From contig NZ_LR027880.1 of assembly GCF_900537995.1 (NCBI RefSeq), forward strand, positions 27,501-91,500: 64,000 nt of DNA, given 5' to 3'. Both the position numbers and the translations under genes were made by a program. Shown one piece after another: positions 5,573 through 55,775 of this stretch. Each line of letters begins with the position of its first letter. The stretch's first letter is position 1. The notes under the pieces were generated by a model, which was given only the letters and a program-made list of their open reading frames with translations, did not search any database and was not told the origin of the DNA. This DNA comes from Roseburia intestinalis L1-82. Its GTDB lineage: Bacteria; Bacillota; Clostridia; Lachnospirales; Lachnospiraceae.

Positions 5573-5881
5573 TTAAAAGAATTCATCTTTGGAGAGAAAG
5601 CAGTGGTGCTGTTCATCCCAAAGAAGCTCTGTGTCAGAGCCTTTCCAGTAGTCCCATGGACCGTTGGAATAGCCAAATCTGATGCGAAAAGCCTGCAGGT
5701 AGTTCAGGGGCATTCCGTCAGAATTCATGTAGTTCCATGGATTTGATTCGACTTCATTGCCTTTATGAACCCACTTTCGGAGACACCGTCGTTCTCTTAG
5801 CGTCATGGGAACGGCTTCTTCCATCTCCTGTAAGGCGACTAAATTAACCTGGTAATCAATGGAATCCTTATCTACTCTCAT
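5573..5881 (-). CDS. Small protein coupled to the IS30-type transposase
   Basis: A 102-residue protein rich in Trp and charged residues, with no motif I recognise. Its ATG lies inside the last codons of the transposase gene (14-base overlap), and GAGGG, also inside that gene, provides the ribosome site. It is therefore translationally coupled and is probably the second ORF of the same insertion sequence. Whether it has a role in transposition or is a passenger cannot be decided from sequence. Confidence 0.55.
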   Translation of the reverse strand: MRVDKDSIDYQVNLVALQEMEEAVPMTLRERRCLRKWVHKGNEVESNPWNYMNSDGMPLNYLQAFRIRFGYSNGPWDYWKGSDTELLWDEQHHCFLSKDEFF

Positions 5882-49270: not shown

Positions 49271-49336
49271 TTTACCATTATTTTACATACATTTTACCAA
49301 ACCTCTCTCATGTATTTTACATAAGTGCATTAAAGT
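49271..49336 (+). promoter_or_regulatory. PhoP-box promoter of pstS
   Basis: TTTACC (49271), TTTACA (49282) and TTTACC (49293) at exact 11-bp steps, and TTTACA (49316) next to a -10-like TAAAGT (49331-49336). This is the direct-repeat pattern bound by PhoP in Firmicutes. Confidence 0.85.
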
Positions 49337-49413: not shown

Positions 49414-50421
49414 ATGAAAAAGAAAGTAATGTGTATGTTATTAACAGGTATGATGGCAGCCAGCATGATCGCAGGCTGTGGTAACAGTGGAAATGCAAGT
49501 GCAAATGCCGGAGCAGATACAAATACAGATGCAAGTGCAGATGCAGCGGACAGTTCAGCAGATCAGTCAGCAGATGTTACACCAGATACGACAGCTGCAA
49601 ATTCAGCATCAGCAGCAACCGGAGATTTTGACAACAGCGAGTACATCAACGTTGTATCCCGTGAGGATGGTTCCGGTACAAGAGGAGCATTCATCGAGCT
49701 GTTCGGTGTGGAAGAGAAAAATGATGCCGGTGAGAAAATTGATAATACAACCGATGAAGCAATCATCACAAACAGTACCGACGTTATGTTAACAACAGTT
49801 TCAGGTGATGAATACTCCATCGGATATGTATCACTTGGTTCCCTAAACGACAGTGTAAAAGCAGTTTCCATCGATGGAGCAGAAGCTACCGTAGATAATA
49901 TCAAGAGCGGAGATTACACGATCGCAAGACCATTTAATATTGCAACCAAAGGAACACCAAGCGATGTGGCACAGGATTTTATCAACTTTATCATGAGTGC
50001 AGACGGACAGGCAGTTATTTCTGATAATAAATACATCCCGGTAGATGACGGTGCAGCAGCATTCGAGTCAAACGGCGCAAGCGGAAAAGTTGTTGTAGCA
50101 GGATCTTCTTCCGTAACACCTGTTATGGAAAAATTAAAAGAGGCATATGTCGCAGTCAACAGCGGTGCAGAGATCGAGATCCAGGAGAGCGATTCCACCA
50201 CAGGTATGACAGCAGCTATGGATGGAACCTGTGATATCGGTATGGCTTCCCGTGAATTAAAAGATTCTGAGACAGAGGGCGGCTTAACAGCAGCCGTGAT
50301 CGCAATGGATGGTATCGCAGTCATCGTAAACAACGACAACCCGACTACAGATCTTTCCAAAGATACAGTCAAAGGCATCTACACAGGCGAAATCACATCC
50401 TGGGATGGCGTTACAGAGTAA
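49414..50421 (+). CDS. pstS: Phosphate-binding lipoprotein PstS, circularly permuted
   Basis: Binds phosphate outside the cell for the PstCAB importer. 335 residues, lipoprotein signal (MIAGC, C22) and an Asp/Ala/Ser-rich linker to about 75. Residues 76-210 correspond to the second half of ordinary PstS (INVVSREDGSGTRGAF, SIGYVSLGSLNDSVKAVSIDG, ARPFNIATKGTPSDVAQDFINFI, YIPV). Residues 223-335 correspond to the first half (GKVVVAGSSSVTPVMEKLKEAY, GTCDIGMASRELKD, IAMDGIAVIVNNDNP, VKGIYTGEITSWDGV). Both phosphate-binding loops are present, in swapped order. ATG 49414 is chosen by GAGG and by signal peptide. Confidence 0.9.
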   Translation: MKKKVMCMLLTGMMAASMIAGCGNSGNASANAGADTNTDASADAADSSADQSADVTPDTTAANSASAATGDFDNSEYINVVSREDGSGTRGAFIELFGVEEKNDAGEKIDNTTDEAIITNSTDVMLTTVSGDEYSIGYVSLGSLNDSVKAVSIDGAEATVDNIKSGDYTIARPFNIATKGTPSDVAQDFINFIMSADGQAVISDNKYIPVDDGAAAFESNGASGKVVVAGSSSVTPVMEKLKEAYVAVNSGAEIEIQESDSTTGMTAAMDGTCDIGMASRELKDSETEGGLTAAVIAMDGIAVIVNNDNPTTDLSKDTVKGIYTGEITSWDGVTE

Positions 50422-50556: not shown

Positions 50557-51411
50557 ATGAATCATATCAAAGAAAAAGTAATGGAAGGCGTTTTCCTCTT
50601 TACGGCAGTCATATCCATTATCGCGGTAGCCTTAATCTGTGTGTTCTTGTTTGCAAACGGATTTCCGGCAATGCAGAAAATCGGTGTATGGCAGTTTTTG
50701 TCGGGAAAAGTATGGAAACCGACCAATAATATATTCGGAATCTTTCCGATGATCTTAGGAAGTATTTATGTAACCGGAGGAGCACTTTTAATCGGAGTCC
50801 CGGTTGGAATACTGATGTCAATCTTTATGGCCCGCTTCTGTCCGGAAAAACTGTACCGCATTTTAAAACCGATCGTGGATCTCTTAGCAGGCATCCCTTC
50901 TATTGTATATGGATTTTTCGGTCTGGTCGTATTGGTGCCGTTTATCAGAGAACATTTTAAAGGAAATGGAAACAGTATCTTAACCGCTTCGATCCTGCTT
51001 GGAATCATGATCCTGCCGACCATTATCGGTGTGTCAGAGTCTGCGATCCGTGCGGTGGAAAACAGCTATTACGAGGGGGCACTTGCACTTGGAGCAACCC
51101 ATGAGAGAAGTGTTTTTACCGTGATCGTTCCGGCAGCAAAATCCGGTATCATGGCAGCAGTCGTGCTCGGTGTCGGACGTGCAATCGGTGAGACGATGGC
51201 AGTTATGATGGTAGCCGGAAACCAGGCGCGGGTTCCATCGAGTATTTTTAAAGGTGTCCGTACCTTAACGGCAAATATTGTAATGGAAATGGGATACGCA
51301 ACGGATCTTCACAGAGAAGCACTGATCGCAACCGGTGTGGTACTGTTTGTGTTTATCCTCATCATCAATGTCTCTTTCTCTATTTTAAAAAGACGCACAA
51401 AGGACAATTAG
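50557..51411 (+). CDS. pstC: Phosphate ABC transporter permease PstC
   Basis: 284 residues, six membrane helices. The ABC-permease EAA loop is visible as AVENSYYEGALALGATHERSVFTVIVPAAKSGIMAAVVLGVGRAIGETMAV; LAGIPSIVYGFFGL is typical of Pst permeases. GGAG precedes the ATG. With PstA it forms the membrane channel. Confidence 0.95.
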   Translation: MNHIKEKVMEGVFLFTAVISIIAVALICVFLFANGFPAMQKIGVWQFLSGKVWKPTNNIFGIFPMILGSIYVTGGALLIGVPVGILMSIFMARFCPEKLYRILKPIVDLLAGIPSIVYGFFGLVVLVPFIREHFKGNGNSILTASILLGIMILPTIIGVSESAIRAVENSYYEGALALGATHERSVFTVIVPAAKSGIMAAVVLGVGRAIGETMAVMMVAGNQARVPSSIFKGVRTLTANIVMEMGYATDLHREALIATGVVLFVFILIINVSFSILKRRTKDN

Positions 51412-51426
51412 AAAGGGGAGATTAAG

Positions 51427-52320
51427 ATGGAAAAACATATGGAAACTGAGATTGCTGCGATCAATCAGCAGTCTTTCAAAGATAAGATCAAATCATATAC
51501 GAAACATCCGGGCTCATTCTTATTGCTGCTTTTAGTGCTTGTCGCAGCAGTGCTGACTGTGGGTGTCCTGGTATTTCTGGTGGGTTATATTTTAATCCGC
51601 GGTATCCCGTATTTAAAAACATCGCTGTTTGCATGGACTTATAATTCGGATAATGTGTCGATGCTCCCGGCGATGATCAACACACTGTTTATGACGGTGC
51701 TGGCGCTTTTGTTATCCGTACCGTTTGGTGTGGGCGCAGCGATCTACCTCGTGGAATACGCAAAAAAGGGAAACAAGTTAGTCGGGATCATCCGTGTGAC
51801 GGCGGAGACACTTTCCGGTATTCCTTCTATTATTTATGGACTCTTTGGTATGTTGTTTTTCGTGACAGCATTAAAATGGGGCTACTCAATGATGGCAGGT
51901 GCAGCGACGCTTGCAATCATGGTACTCCCGGTCATCATGAGAACGACGGAGGAAGCACTTCTTTGCGTACCGGATTCATTCCGTGAGGGGAGTTTCGGAC
52001 TCGGCGCAGGAAAACTGCGTACCATATTTAAAATTGTGCTTCCGAGTGCGATCCCGGGTATTTTATCCGGCATTATCTTAGCGATCGGGCGAATCGTCGG
52101 AGAGACGGCGGCACTCATTTATACATCAGGTACAGTTGCAAACCTTGCAGGATTTTTTGATTCCGGCCGTACCTTAGCGATCCACATGTATTCGTTATCG
52201 CGTGAGGGTATGCATACCAATGAGGCATATGCGACGGCGGTTGTACTTCTTATCGTGGTACTGATCATCAACGGGGTATCCTCCCTGATCGCAAAAAAAT
52301 TTGAAGCGCCGAAACAGTAG
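51427..52320 (+). CDS. pstA: Phosphate ABC transporter permease PstA
   Basis: 297 residues with an N-terminal cytoplasmic stretch, six helices, [14 protein letters not shown] and the EAA loop [50 protein letters not shown]. The strong GGGGAG ahead of 51427 fixes the start. 15 nt after pstC and 14 nt before pstB. Confidence 0.95.
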
Positions 52321-52334
52321 AATGGAGAAAAAAA

Positions 52335-53087
52335 ATGGCAGAAAAATTTAAAATTTCAAACCTGGATTTATATTATGGTGATTTTCATGCACTAAAAAAT
52401 ATCAATATGTCGATCGCATCGAACGAGATTACAGCATTTATCGGACCGAGCGGCTGCGGAAAATCCACCTTTTTGAAGAGTTTAAACAGAATGAACGATC
52501 TGGTCGAGGGATGTAAGATCACCGGCAGTGTTCTTTTGGATGGAGAGGATATTTACAACGGCATGGATGTCAACATTTTAAGAAAACGTGTCGGAATGGT
52601 ATTCCAGAAACCGAATCCGTTTCCAATGAGTATCTATGACAATATCGCATATGGACCAAGAACACACGGTATCCGCTCCAAGGCAAAGTTGGATGAGATC
52701 GTGGAGAAATCCCTGCGGGATGCGGCGATCTGGGATGAGGTAAAGGATCGTCTGAAAAAAAGTGCGCTCGGCATGTCCGGTGGACAGCAGCAGAGACTTT
52801 GTATCGCAAGGGCACTTGCTGTTAACCCGGAAGTCATCTTAATGGATGAGCCGACCTCAGCACTTGACCCGATCTCAACATCAAAGATCGAGGATCTTGT
52901 CATTGAACTGAAAAAACAGTACACGATTATTATGGTAACACATAACATGCAGCAGGCAGTCCGTGTCTCGGATAAGACCGTATTTTTCCTGTTAGGGGAA
53001 GTGATCGAGTCGGGTGAGACAGAGCGGTTATTCTCCGTGCCGCAGGATAAGCGGACAGAGGATTACATCACCGGACGTTTTGGATGA
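52335..53087 (+). CDS. pstB: Phosphate ABC transporter ATP-binding protein PstB
   Basis: Powers phosphate import. 250 residues, Walker [11 protein letters not shown]-loop [20 protein letters not shown] (characteristic of PstB), signature [15 protein letters not shown], Walker [14 protein letters not shown] and switch His MVTHNMQQA. Complete. Confidence 0.97.
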
Positions 53088-53179
53088 TACTGCGGGCTGG
53101 GTCAGCCATGACATACAGAAAAAAGTGTAGAAATGTAGAGCAATCTATAACAGGAAAAGAAAGAGGGAAGTGGAAAATC

Positions 53180-53836
53180 ATGAGAAACAGATTTGACAGA
53201 CAGCTTCAGGTATTGAACGATGAATTGATTGAGATGGGAAGCCTGATCGAGCAGGCGATCGAGATGGCATGTTCGGCACTGGTCAGACAGGATGTGGAGA
53301 AAGCGCAGAAAGCGATCAGCTTTGATGAGGAGATCGACCATCAGGAGCGCGATATTGAAAGCCTCTGCATGAAATTATTATTGCAGCAGCAGCCGGTGGC
53401 AAAAGATCTCCGCCTGATCTCAGCAGCACTGAAAATGATCACGGATATGGAGCGTATCGGGGATCATGCATCCGATATTTCGGAAATGACAATCTTAATG
53501 GCGGACGCTGCTTATGAAACCGGGGATCCGATCAATCTTGACCTGATCAAGGAAATGGCAAAAGAAACAACTGACATGGTCATCAAGAGTGTGGATGCAT
53601 TCGTGCAGAAAGACATGGATATGGCACACTGGGTCATCAAAGAAGATGATGTGGTGGATGATCTGTTCAACCAGTTCAAACAGCAGCTCATCAAAAAGAT
53701 CAATGAGAATGTAAAAAATGGGGAGCAGGCAACGGATATGCTGATGGTTGCAAAATATTTTGAGCGTATCGGAGACCATGCGACCAATATTGCGGAGTGG
53801 GTGATCTATTCCATTACCGGACAGCATGAAAATTAA
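53180..53836 (+). CDS. phoU: Phosphate-signalling protein PhoU
   Basis: 218 residues, two three-helix bundles with the metal-binding motifs DMERIGDHASDISE and YFERIGDHATNIAEW. It couples PstB activity to PhoR so that PhoR is silenced when phosphate is plentiful. ATG at 53180 begins the conserved MRNRFDRQL; longer upstream frames have no similarity. 92 nt after pstB. Confidence 0.95.
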   Translation: MRNRFDRQLQVLNDELIEMGSLIEQAIEMACSALVRQDVEKAQKAISFDEEIDHQERDIESLCMKLLLQQQPVAKDLRLISAALKMITDMERIGDHASDISEMTILMADAAYETGDPINLDLIKEMAKETTDMVIKSVDAFVQKDMDMAHWVIKEDDVVDDLFNQFKQQLIKKINENVKNGEQATDMLMVAKYFERIGDHATNIAEWVIYSITGQHEN

Positions 53837-53868: not shown

Positions 53869-53923
53869 TTTACATAGATTTTACATAAAGTTGACGGCGA
53901 ATTTACATACTCCTTTTTATGCT
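53869..53923 (+). promoter_or_regulatory. PhoP-box promoter of the Na/Pi cotransporter-phoPR operon
   Basis: TTTACA (53869), TTTACA (53880), TTGACG (53891) and TTTACA (53902) at exact 11-bp steps, followed by a -10-like TATGCT (53918-53923), 16 nt after the last repeat begins. It predicts autoregulation of phoPR by phosphate starvation. Confidence 0.87.
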
Positions 53924-54014: not shown

Positions 54015-55775
54015 ATGGATATTTTTGGAGTACTGACCCTCATTGGTGGATTGGCACTGTTCCTGTACGGAATGAATGTAATGGGTGCCGGACTGGAGAA
54101 GATGTCAGGAGGTAAATTAGAGAAGATATTAGAGACTCTGACATCAAACCCGATCAAGGCAGTGTTGCTTGGTGCAGGTGTAACCGCAGTGATCCAGTCG
54201 TCATCGGCGACGACGGTTATGGTGGTTGGTTTTGTGAACTCCGGTATTATGAAGCTGTCACAGGCAGTCGGCATCATTATGGGTGCAAATATCGGAACAA
54301 CGGTAACGTCATGGCTTTTGAGCTTAAGTGGACTGCAGGGGGATAACTTTTTTATCCAGATGTTAAAACCATCCTCCTTCTCACCGATCCTTGCAATGAT
54401 CGGTATCATACTTTGTATGTCGAAAAAGAGCGACAAGAAAAAAGATATCGGTGAGATCTTACTTGGATTTGCAGTATTAATGTACGGTATGGAGAGCATG
54501 AGCGGGGCGGTAGAACCGCTTGCAGATGTGCCGGAATTTACGAATATCTTAACGATGTTCCACAATCCGTTCCTTGGTGTATTGGCAGGAGCTGTACTTA
54601 CTGCGATCATACAGAGTTCCTCTGCATCGGTCGGAATTTTACAGGCACTGTCTGTAACAGGAGCATTTACCTATGGCTCTGTGATCCCAATCATCATGGG
54701 ACAGAATATCGGTACCTGTGTGACGGCAATGATTTCAGCAATCGGGGCAAACAGAGGTGCAAAGAGAACGGCATTCGTGCATCTTTATTTTAATGTGATC
54801 GGTACGATCCTGTTTCTGGTATTGTTTTATACAGGCAATGCGCTGATCGGATTTGAGTTTACCAATGAAGTCGTTGGAGCAGCGGGAATCGCAATGATCC
54901 ACACCATATTTAATGTGTTCGCAACCCTGGTTTTACTGCCGTTTACAAAGGGATTAGAGAAGCTGGCTTACTTGACGATCCCGAAAACAGCAGAGGAACA
55001 GAATCAGAAAGAGGATGTATTTGTTATTTTAGACGACCGTTTCTTAAACAGCCCTGCATTTGCGATTGAGCAGTGCCATTCTCTTGCCAATCAGATGGCA
55101 AAGATCACACACGAAGGATTTTTAGAGGCGATGACCGTATTGGATGAGTACTCCGAAGAAAAAATCGAGGATGTCATTGCAAAAGAAAATATTGTAGATA
55201 CCTATGATGATAAACTCAGTGCATACTTAACGAAGTTAAGCAGCCAGAATTTATCTTATAAAGACAGTCTGAAGGTAACATCCTTGCTTCACTGTCTGAC
55301 AGATTTTGAGCGAATTTCCGACCATTCCATCAACGTGGTGGAAAATGCACAGCAGATGTATAAAGAGGGCGCTGTATTTTCCAAGAAAGCAAAGGAAGAA
55401 ATGAAGATATACAGCACAGCACTCCGTGATATCTTAGAGCGTACCACAAACGCATTTGTGGATGGTGATGAGGCACTTGCGCGTACGGTAGAACCGTTAG
55501 AAGAAGTCATTGATGAGTTAAACAAGACAGTAAAGAAAAACCATATGAAGCGTCTTAGAAAAGGGAAATGTACCATTGAGCTTGGTCTTGTATTGTCAGA
55601 TCTTGCAATGAACTATGAGCGTGTTGCAGACCATTGTTCGAATATCGCGGTATATATGATGCAGTTAGAGGATACCCAGTTAGAGGAACACAGTTTTACC
55701 GAGCAGCTGGATGCAGAGGAGAGCGCAGAGTTTACAAAACAGTTAAACGAGTTCGAGAAGATATATCAGATTTAA
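54015..55775 (+). CDS. Na+/phosphate cotransporter with PhoU-like tail
   Basis: 586 residues. Two inverted Na/Pi-cotransporter repeats with the QSSSAT-type motifs VIQSSSATTVMVVGFVNSG and IIQSSSASVGILQALSVTG, about eight to nine membrane segments to residue ~320. A cytoplasmic PhoU-like helical domain follows (DFERISDHSINVVENA, NYERVADHCSNIAVYM). Low-affinity phosphate uptake or export. AAGGAG lies 9 nt ahead. Heads the phoP-phoR operon. Confidence 0.93.
   Translation: MDIFGVLTLIGGLALFLYGMNVMGAGLEKMSGGKLEKILETLTSNPIKAVLLGAGVTAVIQSSSATTVMVVGFVNSGIMKLSQAVGIIMGANIGTTVTSWLLSLSGLQGDNFFIQMLKPSSFSPILAMIGIILCMSKKSDKKKDIGEILLGFAVLMYGMESMSGAVEPLADVPEFTNILTMFHNPFLGVLAGAVLTAIIQSSSASVGILQALSVTGAFTYGSVIPIIMGQNIGTCVTAMISAIGANRGAKRTAFVHLYFNVIGTILFLVLFYTGNALIGFEFTNEVVGAAGIAMIHTIFNVFATLVLLPFTKGLEKLAYLTIPKTAEEQNQKEDVFVILDDRFLNSPAFAIEQCHSLANQMAKITHEGFLEAMTVLDEYSEEKIEDVIAKENIVDTYDDKLSAYLTKLSSQNLSYKDSLKVTSLLHCLTDFERISDHSINVVENAQQMYKEGAVFSKKAKEEMKIYSTALRDILERTTNAFVDGDEALARTVEPLEEVIDELNKTVKKNHMKRLRKGKCTIELGLVLSDLAMNYERVADHCSNIAVYMMQLEDTQLEEHSFTEQLDAEESAEFTKQLNEFEKIYQI

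Follow-up and report, generated by a model that had tools for sequence, protein, structure and literature searches.

PstS is a classic substrate-binding protein. The pst locus of Roseburia intestinalis L1-82 opens with a pstS gene in which the motifs of the two protein halves appear in exchanged order, raising the question of whether this arrangement is genuine and, if so, how the protein folds, how the arrangement arose and whether the product still serves as a phosphate receptor.

A PstS with exchanged halves

In the window, the 64,000-nucleotide stretch of DNA analysed here, the gene at 49414..50421 encodes a circularly permuted PstS, which is the sole PstS match of the genome and heads a standard pst operon. 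The features of the locus are as follows.

49271..49297, forward strand: three TTTAC repeats with an 11-bp period, PhoP/PnpR-box-like, upstream of pstS (0 mismatches)
49414..50421, forward strand: pstS, circularly permuted, 335 aa (profile matches, PDB alignment, model)
49639..50058, forward strand: PstS C-half, residues 76–215, placed first (SREDGSGTR, SIGYVSLG, RPFNIATKG)
50077..50418, forward strand: PstS N-half, residues 222–335, placed second (GSSSVTPVMEKL, DIGMASREL, ITSWDG)
50557..51411, forward strand: pstC, of a PstC/PstA clade that in the sample accompanies permuted PstS alone
51427..52320, forward strand: pstA, in which the segment 67–78 includes five of the seven residues that mark the permuted clade
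52335..53087, forward strand: pstB (ORF list, sequence reading)
53084..53836, forward strand: phoU (ORF as listed; the true start is probably further in)

The pstS reading frame comprises a signal peptide, a lipobox (IAGC), a low-complexity tether extending to about residue 70, the C-half, the join and the N-half. A search of the genome with TIGR02136 placed profile positions 161–295 at contig positions 77136–77543 and profile positions 36–164 at 77571–77933, two adjoining, in-frame stretches with the C-half first, and Pfam and NCBIfam searches concur. Against the protein, TIGR02136 scored 179 bits in two stretches, with both halves significant; the score falls below the curated cut-off of 206.6 because the halves, owing to their order, are scored apart. 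PF12849 scored 115 bits against a cut-off of 27, and the Pfam matches are PBP_like_2 and SBP_bac_11. Canonical PstS chains from the PDB align to the Roseburia protein as swapped stretches, and PDB 4h1x aligns colinearly over residues 76–333. By profile coordinates and PDB alignment, the canonical order (N-half before C-half) is absent from the protein. The swapped order proposed in the first-pass annotation is therefore confirmed, as are the reading frame with its start codon and the lipoprotein signal, and its motif positions were right to within a few residues. A TIGR02136 search of the single 4,493,348-base contig gave no second PstS; 11 other matches of the PstS protein query span only query residues 1–85, the signal peptide and tether, and were rejected as further copies.

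The operon order is pstS-pstC-pstA-pstB-phoU, with names assigned by sequence reading and consistent with a comparison of relatives' loci, so the gene does lead a standard pst operon, as had been stated. Repeats resembling the PhoP boxes claimed ahead of pstS are also present: the TTTAC-repeat pattern, at up to one mismatch, has 3 matches in the window vs. 0.01 expected in shuffles. A second TTTAC set, two overlapping one-mismatch copies at 53869–53906, lies before a Na/Pi-cotransporter-like gene (54015–55775). Downstream of phoU are this cotransporter-like gene, a response regulator and a histidine-kinase-like gene (the kinase by sequence reading), and a ppk-like gene precedes the operon. A RelA_SpoT-domain protein (PF04607; 46476–47171) is encoded directly ahead of the ppk-like gene. 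Judged by gene content, the pst region with ppk, phoU, the TTTAC sets, regulator, kinase and cotransporter gene looks like a phosphate island.

Fold, pocket and tether

Superposition of a predicted structure on a canonical PstS had been proposed as a check. AlphaFold2 with the single sequence gave an unusable model (pLDDT 34); with 52 relatives, pLDDT was at least 90 in 247 of the 335 residues. This model matched 4h1x over 257/257 residues at 1.4 Å with 47% identity, and just 133–140 of its residues align in sequence order with canonical PstS structures. The prediction thus returned the permuted fold with high confidence.

We consider it very probable that this is a natural circular permutation of PstS that still captures phosphate outside the cell for a PstSCAB importer. 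In the proposed rearrangement, a short linker would connect the original N and C termini, which both lie in domain I, and the new termini would open in the domain II loop that canonically runs between the ITxW helix and the REDGSGTR strand. Domain I would be continuous and domain II split, with the two hinge crossings retained, so that the lipid anchor would pull on domain II. The earlier suggestion that the anchor moves to the other lobe holds as regards domain II, but the site it gave, the hinge side, needs correcting: the anchor would attach within domain II itself, in the loop preceding the SREDGSGTR strand. The domain boundaries, drawn by correspondence with PhoX, and the docking geometry of the permuted protein are putative, and docking to PstCA may have changed.

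The pocket is conserved. Ligand roles were assigned by motif from PhoX, and 44/44 permuted representatives have the four REDGSGTR residues concerned (R, S, G and T) as well as the conserved Ser in each of the motifs GSSS, SDSTTG and MASREL. Among 32 canonical rows, the REDGSGTR positions are R in 28, S in 28, G in 28 and T in 27 (four rows are gapped), and the Ser of GSSS and of SDSTTG is found in 31 and 30, respectively. Since neither the pocket residues nor the two-lobe clamp has been lost, phosphate would be bound by lobe closure and passed to PstCA as in ordinary PstS.

The linker between the half models is 8–9 residues long in 92 of 111 permuted ORFs. The median tether is 28 residues in permuted proteins (lipobox found in 105/111) vs. 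15 in canonical ones (33/35). Eleven genomes, six of them close kin, allow the two tethers to be compared directly: in 10 the permuted one is the longer, by a single residue in the case of G324, and in G205 it is the shorter; G220 and G028 have no canonical value.

Distribution among genomes

With half order read from profile coordinates in whole-genome surveys, the permuted form proved widespread. A search of Lachnospiraceae, also proposed at the outset, found the order recurring in 32 of 100 genomes (one per genus), with a canonical PstS over the cut-off in 34 and both in 2. A class sample of Clostridia gave 18/98 permuted and 38 canonical over the cut-off; one genome (G267) has both orders by this measure, and two (G283 and G324) also hold a canonical-order copy just below it. 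Within the genus, 11 of 30 genomes carry the permuted form (one broken at a contig end), 15 a canonical one over the cut-off and one both, and 4 gave no PstS match. The permuted form is found in 23/118 Streptococcus genomes, in at least 15/98 Lactobacillales genomes (at least 11 with both halves listed, plus G414, G358, G398 and G430, confirmed at their loci) and in at least 6/149 genomes of a phylum sample. Two Streptococcus genomes (G486 and G503) have a permuted-PstS match spread over two reading frames. Among 16 named genomes selected for having a permuted PstS, only S. hillyeri has a canonical copy over the cut-off besides. Six Lactobacillales genomes carry permuted and canonical pst operons head to tail (L130–L135), the canonical operon having two pstB genes. 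The Roseburia protein is thus a member of a large Firmicutes group, neither unique nor structurally unseen, as a structure was deposited in 2012.

A match in Leptolinea (Chloroflexota; L072) was set aside as probable contamination: it lies on a 4.7 kb MAG contig and is nested among Clostridia. Weaker PstS-like matches have the N-then-C order (L143–L146) or one half only (L142, L147, L149, L150 and L151).

PstC and PstA are encoded directly downstream of pstS in 39 of the 44 permuted representatives. Three of the five exceptions are at contig ends, and in a fourth (L158) pstS sits behind other pst genes. The fifth (L100, genome G205) is a diverged permuted PstS beside a Na/Pi-cotransporter-like gene, with no pstCAB found adjacent; G205 carries a canonical pst operon (L099) as well.

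Origin and permease partnership

Trees were built from 76 PstS rows (44 permuted and 32 canonical) with the halves put into one common order, after nine partial rows and permuted rows more than 74% identical to a kept one had been dropped. The two sets nearly separate, but the trees of all rows need two order changes, which would favour a permutation that arose more than once, or reverted, over a single origin. In the quick tree L118, a canonical-order row with a long branch and odd composition, is placed among the permuted rows; in the careful tree it lies with the canonical rows and canonical L120 is joined to permuted L148, both long, and a single split appears in only 8% of bootstrap trees. 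The rows responsible, however, all sit on long branches and are not the same ones in both trees. When five long rows are left out, the PstS tree has a single split (100/99), with the 4h1x gene in the same clade, and on the full set the AU test does not reject one permuted clade (p 0.437). The PstC and PstA trees also take one change: 71 operons (39 permuted and 32 canonical, the five permuted rows lacking PstC and PstA together being left out) show one split with SH-aLRT 100, and 66 rows without the five long ones give a split at 100/100. As the join length is also tight, we regard repeated origin or reversion as unlikely and a single origin as the better reading. The PstC/PstA tree also groups L118 (G283; canonical-order pstS at 5704) with canonical rows.

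In the sample, permuted PstS pairs only with its own PstC/PstA clade, a pattern that shared descent alone would also give. This permease clade has seven diagnostic columns in PstC and seven in PstA. Five of the seven in PstA fall within residues 67–78, after the first membrane helix and presumably extracellular; the clustering (five of seven columns within 12 residues) was equalled by 7 of 20,000 random placements among conserved columns. A 16-row canonical clade showed no cluster of this type, and the diagnostic columns of PstC no comparable one. A reading of this signature in the PstA loop as an adaptation to docking is only suggestive, since the pattern was noticed post hoc and any clade will have residues peculiar to it.

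The permuted pst operon of S. hillyeri (L087, 5848–9903) is nested among Clostridia, apart from the sample's other lactic acid bacteria. Its PstC/PstA has a Lachnospiraceae row as its sister (SH-aLRT 99), and the operon was probably acquired by later transfer.

The pneumococcal counterpart and function

The closest known counterpart is S. pneumoniae TIGR4 4h1x (SP_2084, "pstS 2"), which has the same half order and fold as Roseburia PstS and whose full gene (L093) belongs to the permuted set in both the PstS and the PstC/PstA trees. Unlike Roseburia, the pneumococcus also has a canonical PstS, and its permuted tether is 13 residues long vs. 54 in Roseburia. The Streptococcus genome G491 encodes a PstS with 100% identity to the 4h1x chain; its permuted pstS comes immediately after genes for a response-regulator-like protein and a histidine kinase, a position that its canonical pstS does not share. 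Zheng et al. 2016 (PMC4913102) place pnpRS immediately upstream of pst1 in the pneumococcus; PstS1 of that study is thus expected to be the permuted protein, and gene order suggests that its numbering and the PDB label "pstS 2" are crossed. The same study reports a pst1 transcript about 210-fold up at 10 µM phosphate, an initial uptake about two-fold lower at 200 µM without pst1-phoU1, no reduction of uptake in either single mutant at 1 mM phosphate, and a requirement of encapsulated cells for either pst1 or pst2. With pst1 taken as permuted by gene order, these whole-operon data indicate that the operon led by the permuted pstS encodes a functional phosphate importer and is induced. By analogy with the pneumococcal operon, Roseburia PstS would likewise be the receptor of a phosphate importer, and its pocket motifs predict phosphate specificity for the protein itself.

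A permuted receptor for another ligand, such as another oxyanion or a phosphonate, could be read from one pocket column, the last Ser (MASREL), which is Ser in 44/44 permuted rows and Asp in 16/32 canonical ones. Yet Ser also stands there in 15/32 canonical rows, the remaining pocket motifs are common to both forms, the gene lies in a pst operon with phoU and TTTAC boxes, and PMC4913102 has pneumococcal pst1 regulated by phosphate and contributing to its uptake; we find another ligand improbable. Still less probable is a domain-swapped dimer, with halves pairing in trans to build the canonical clamp from two chains, as one chain of the model by itself adopts the 4h1x fold with high confidence. 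Least credible of all is an assembly error or a mis-joining of halves of two genes. Mosaic PstS proteins do exist in metagenome catalogues, but the Roseburia genome is a single 4.49 Mb contig with one PstS, and numerous independent genomes (the 32/100, 18/98, 11/30 and 23/118 given above) share this order with PDB 4h1x, which makes an artefact very unlikely and answers the concern raised with the first-pass annotation. We therefore retain a natural permutation serving phosphate uptake.

Six metagenome proteins with an N-C-N arrangement (P0106, P0122, P0123, P0124, P0135 and P0136) were considered as tandem intermediates and rejected, five of them looking like mosaics. P0106 and P0122 are 100% identical in their first part and 75% and 64% in later parts; P0123 and P0124 are 100% identical in the first part and 54% and 61% later; P0124 and P0135 are 98% identical in the middle and 66–67% in the flanks. 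Identity switches at conserved motifs, and P0136 has no near-identical part in common with the other five. These proteins are probably assembly chimeras, judging from these identity patterns; P0122 sits on a 15 kb contig, in view of which they may be products of real recombination.

Relation to known systems

Canonical PstS proteins (C. perfringens 4q8r/4gd5 and V. cholerae 1twy) have both halves, the pocket motifs and the operon role in common with the Roseburia protein, but their halves stand in reverse order and the anchor is on domain I. A precedent is TpMglB-2 of Treponema pallidum (Type Ic), likewise a naturally permuted lipoprotein receptor of an ABC importer, whose authors (PMC4990184) suggest permutation as an adaptation to anchoring. 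It has a sugar-binding Type I (Cluster B) fold in which only the first three strands have moved and an extra hinge crossing has been gained. The structural neighbours listed for the Roseburia model are phosphate-binding and other binding proteins, with no TpMglB-2, and do not place it in Type I/Cluster B. The two permutations are not homologous as events; relative to the precedent, the present case is new in belonging to another fold class and in concerning a nutrient receptor that is common. OpuAC of B. subtilis, a glycine-betaine-binding protein, is distant (about 11–12% identity, rmsd 4.5–4.9) and differs in ligand and family.

No paper on PstS permutation was found in the open-licence PMC literature, where 4h1x was found only as a deposited structure without an accompanying paper; PMC4913102 and PMC12421899 contain no word starting with "permut". 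Since the structure is deposited, the permuted order has been visible in public data.

One could go further and see the permutation as a functional innovation and no neutral accident. In that view, the move of the tether from domain I to domain II would have altered the way the receptor is presented at the membrane, PstA would have adjusted its first extracellular loop accordingly, and PstS, PstC and PstA would then have travelled together as one module across Clostridia and Lactobacillales, displacing canonical Pst in many lineages. We offer this tentatively and think it rather unlikely as a whole.

The PstS chain is rewired in 32 of the 100 genera sampled from the family, apparently undescribed in the open literature searched, and because the TIGR02136 cut-off misses the Roseburia protein, such receptors may be under-called. 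The occurrence of one or the other form within a genus, together with side-by-side operons, constitutes a natural paired experiment on whether the tethered lobe, or domain order, makes a difference to ligand capture and docking.
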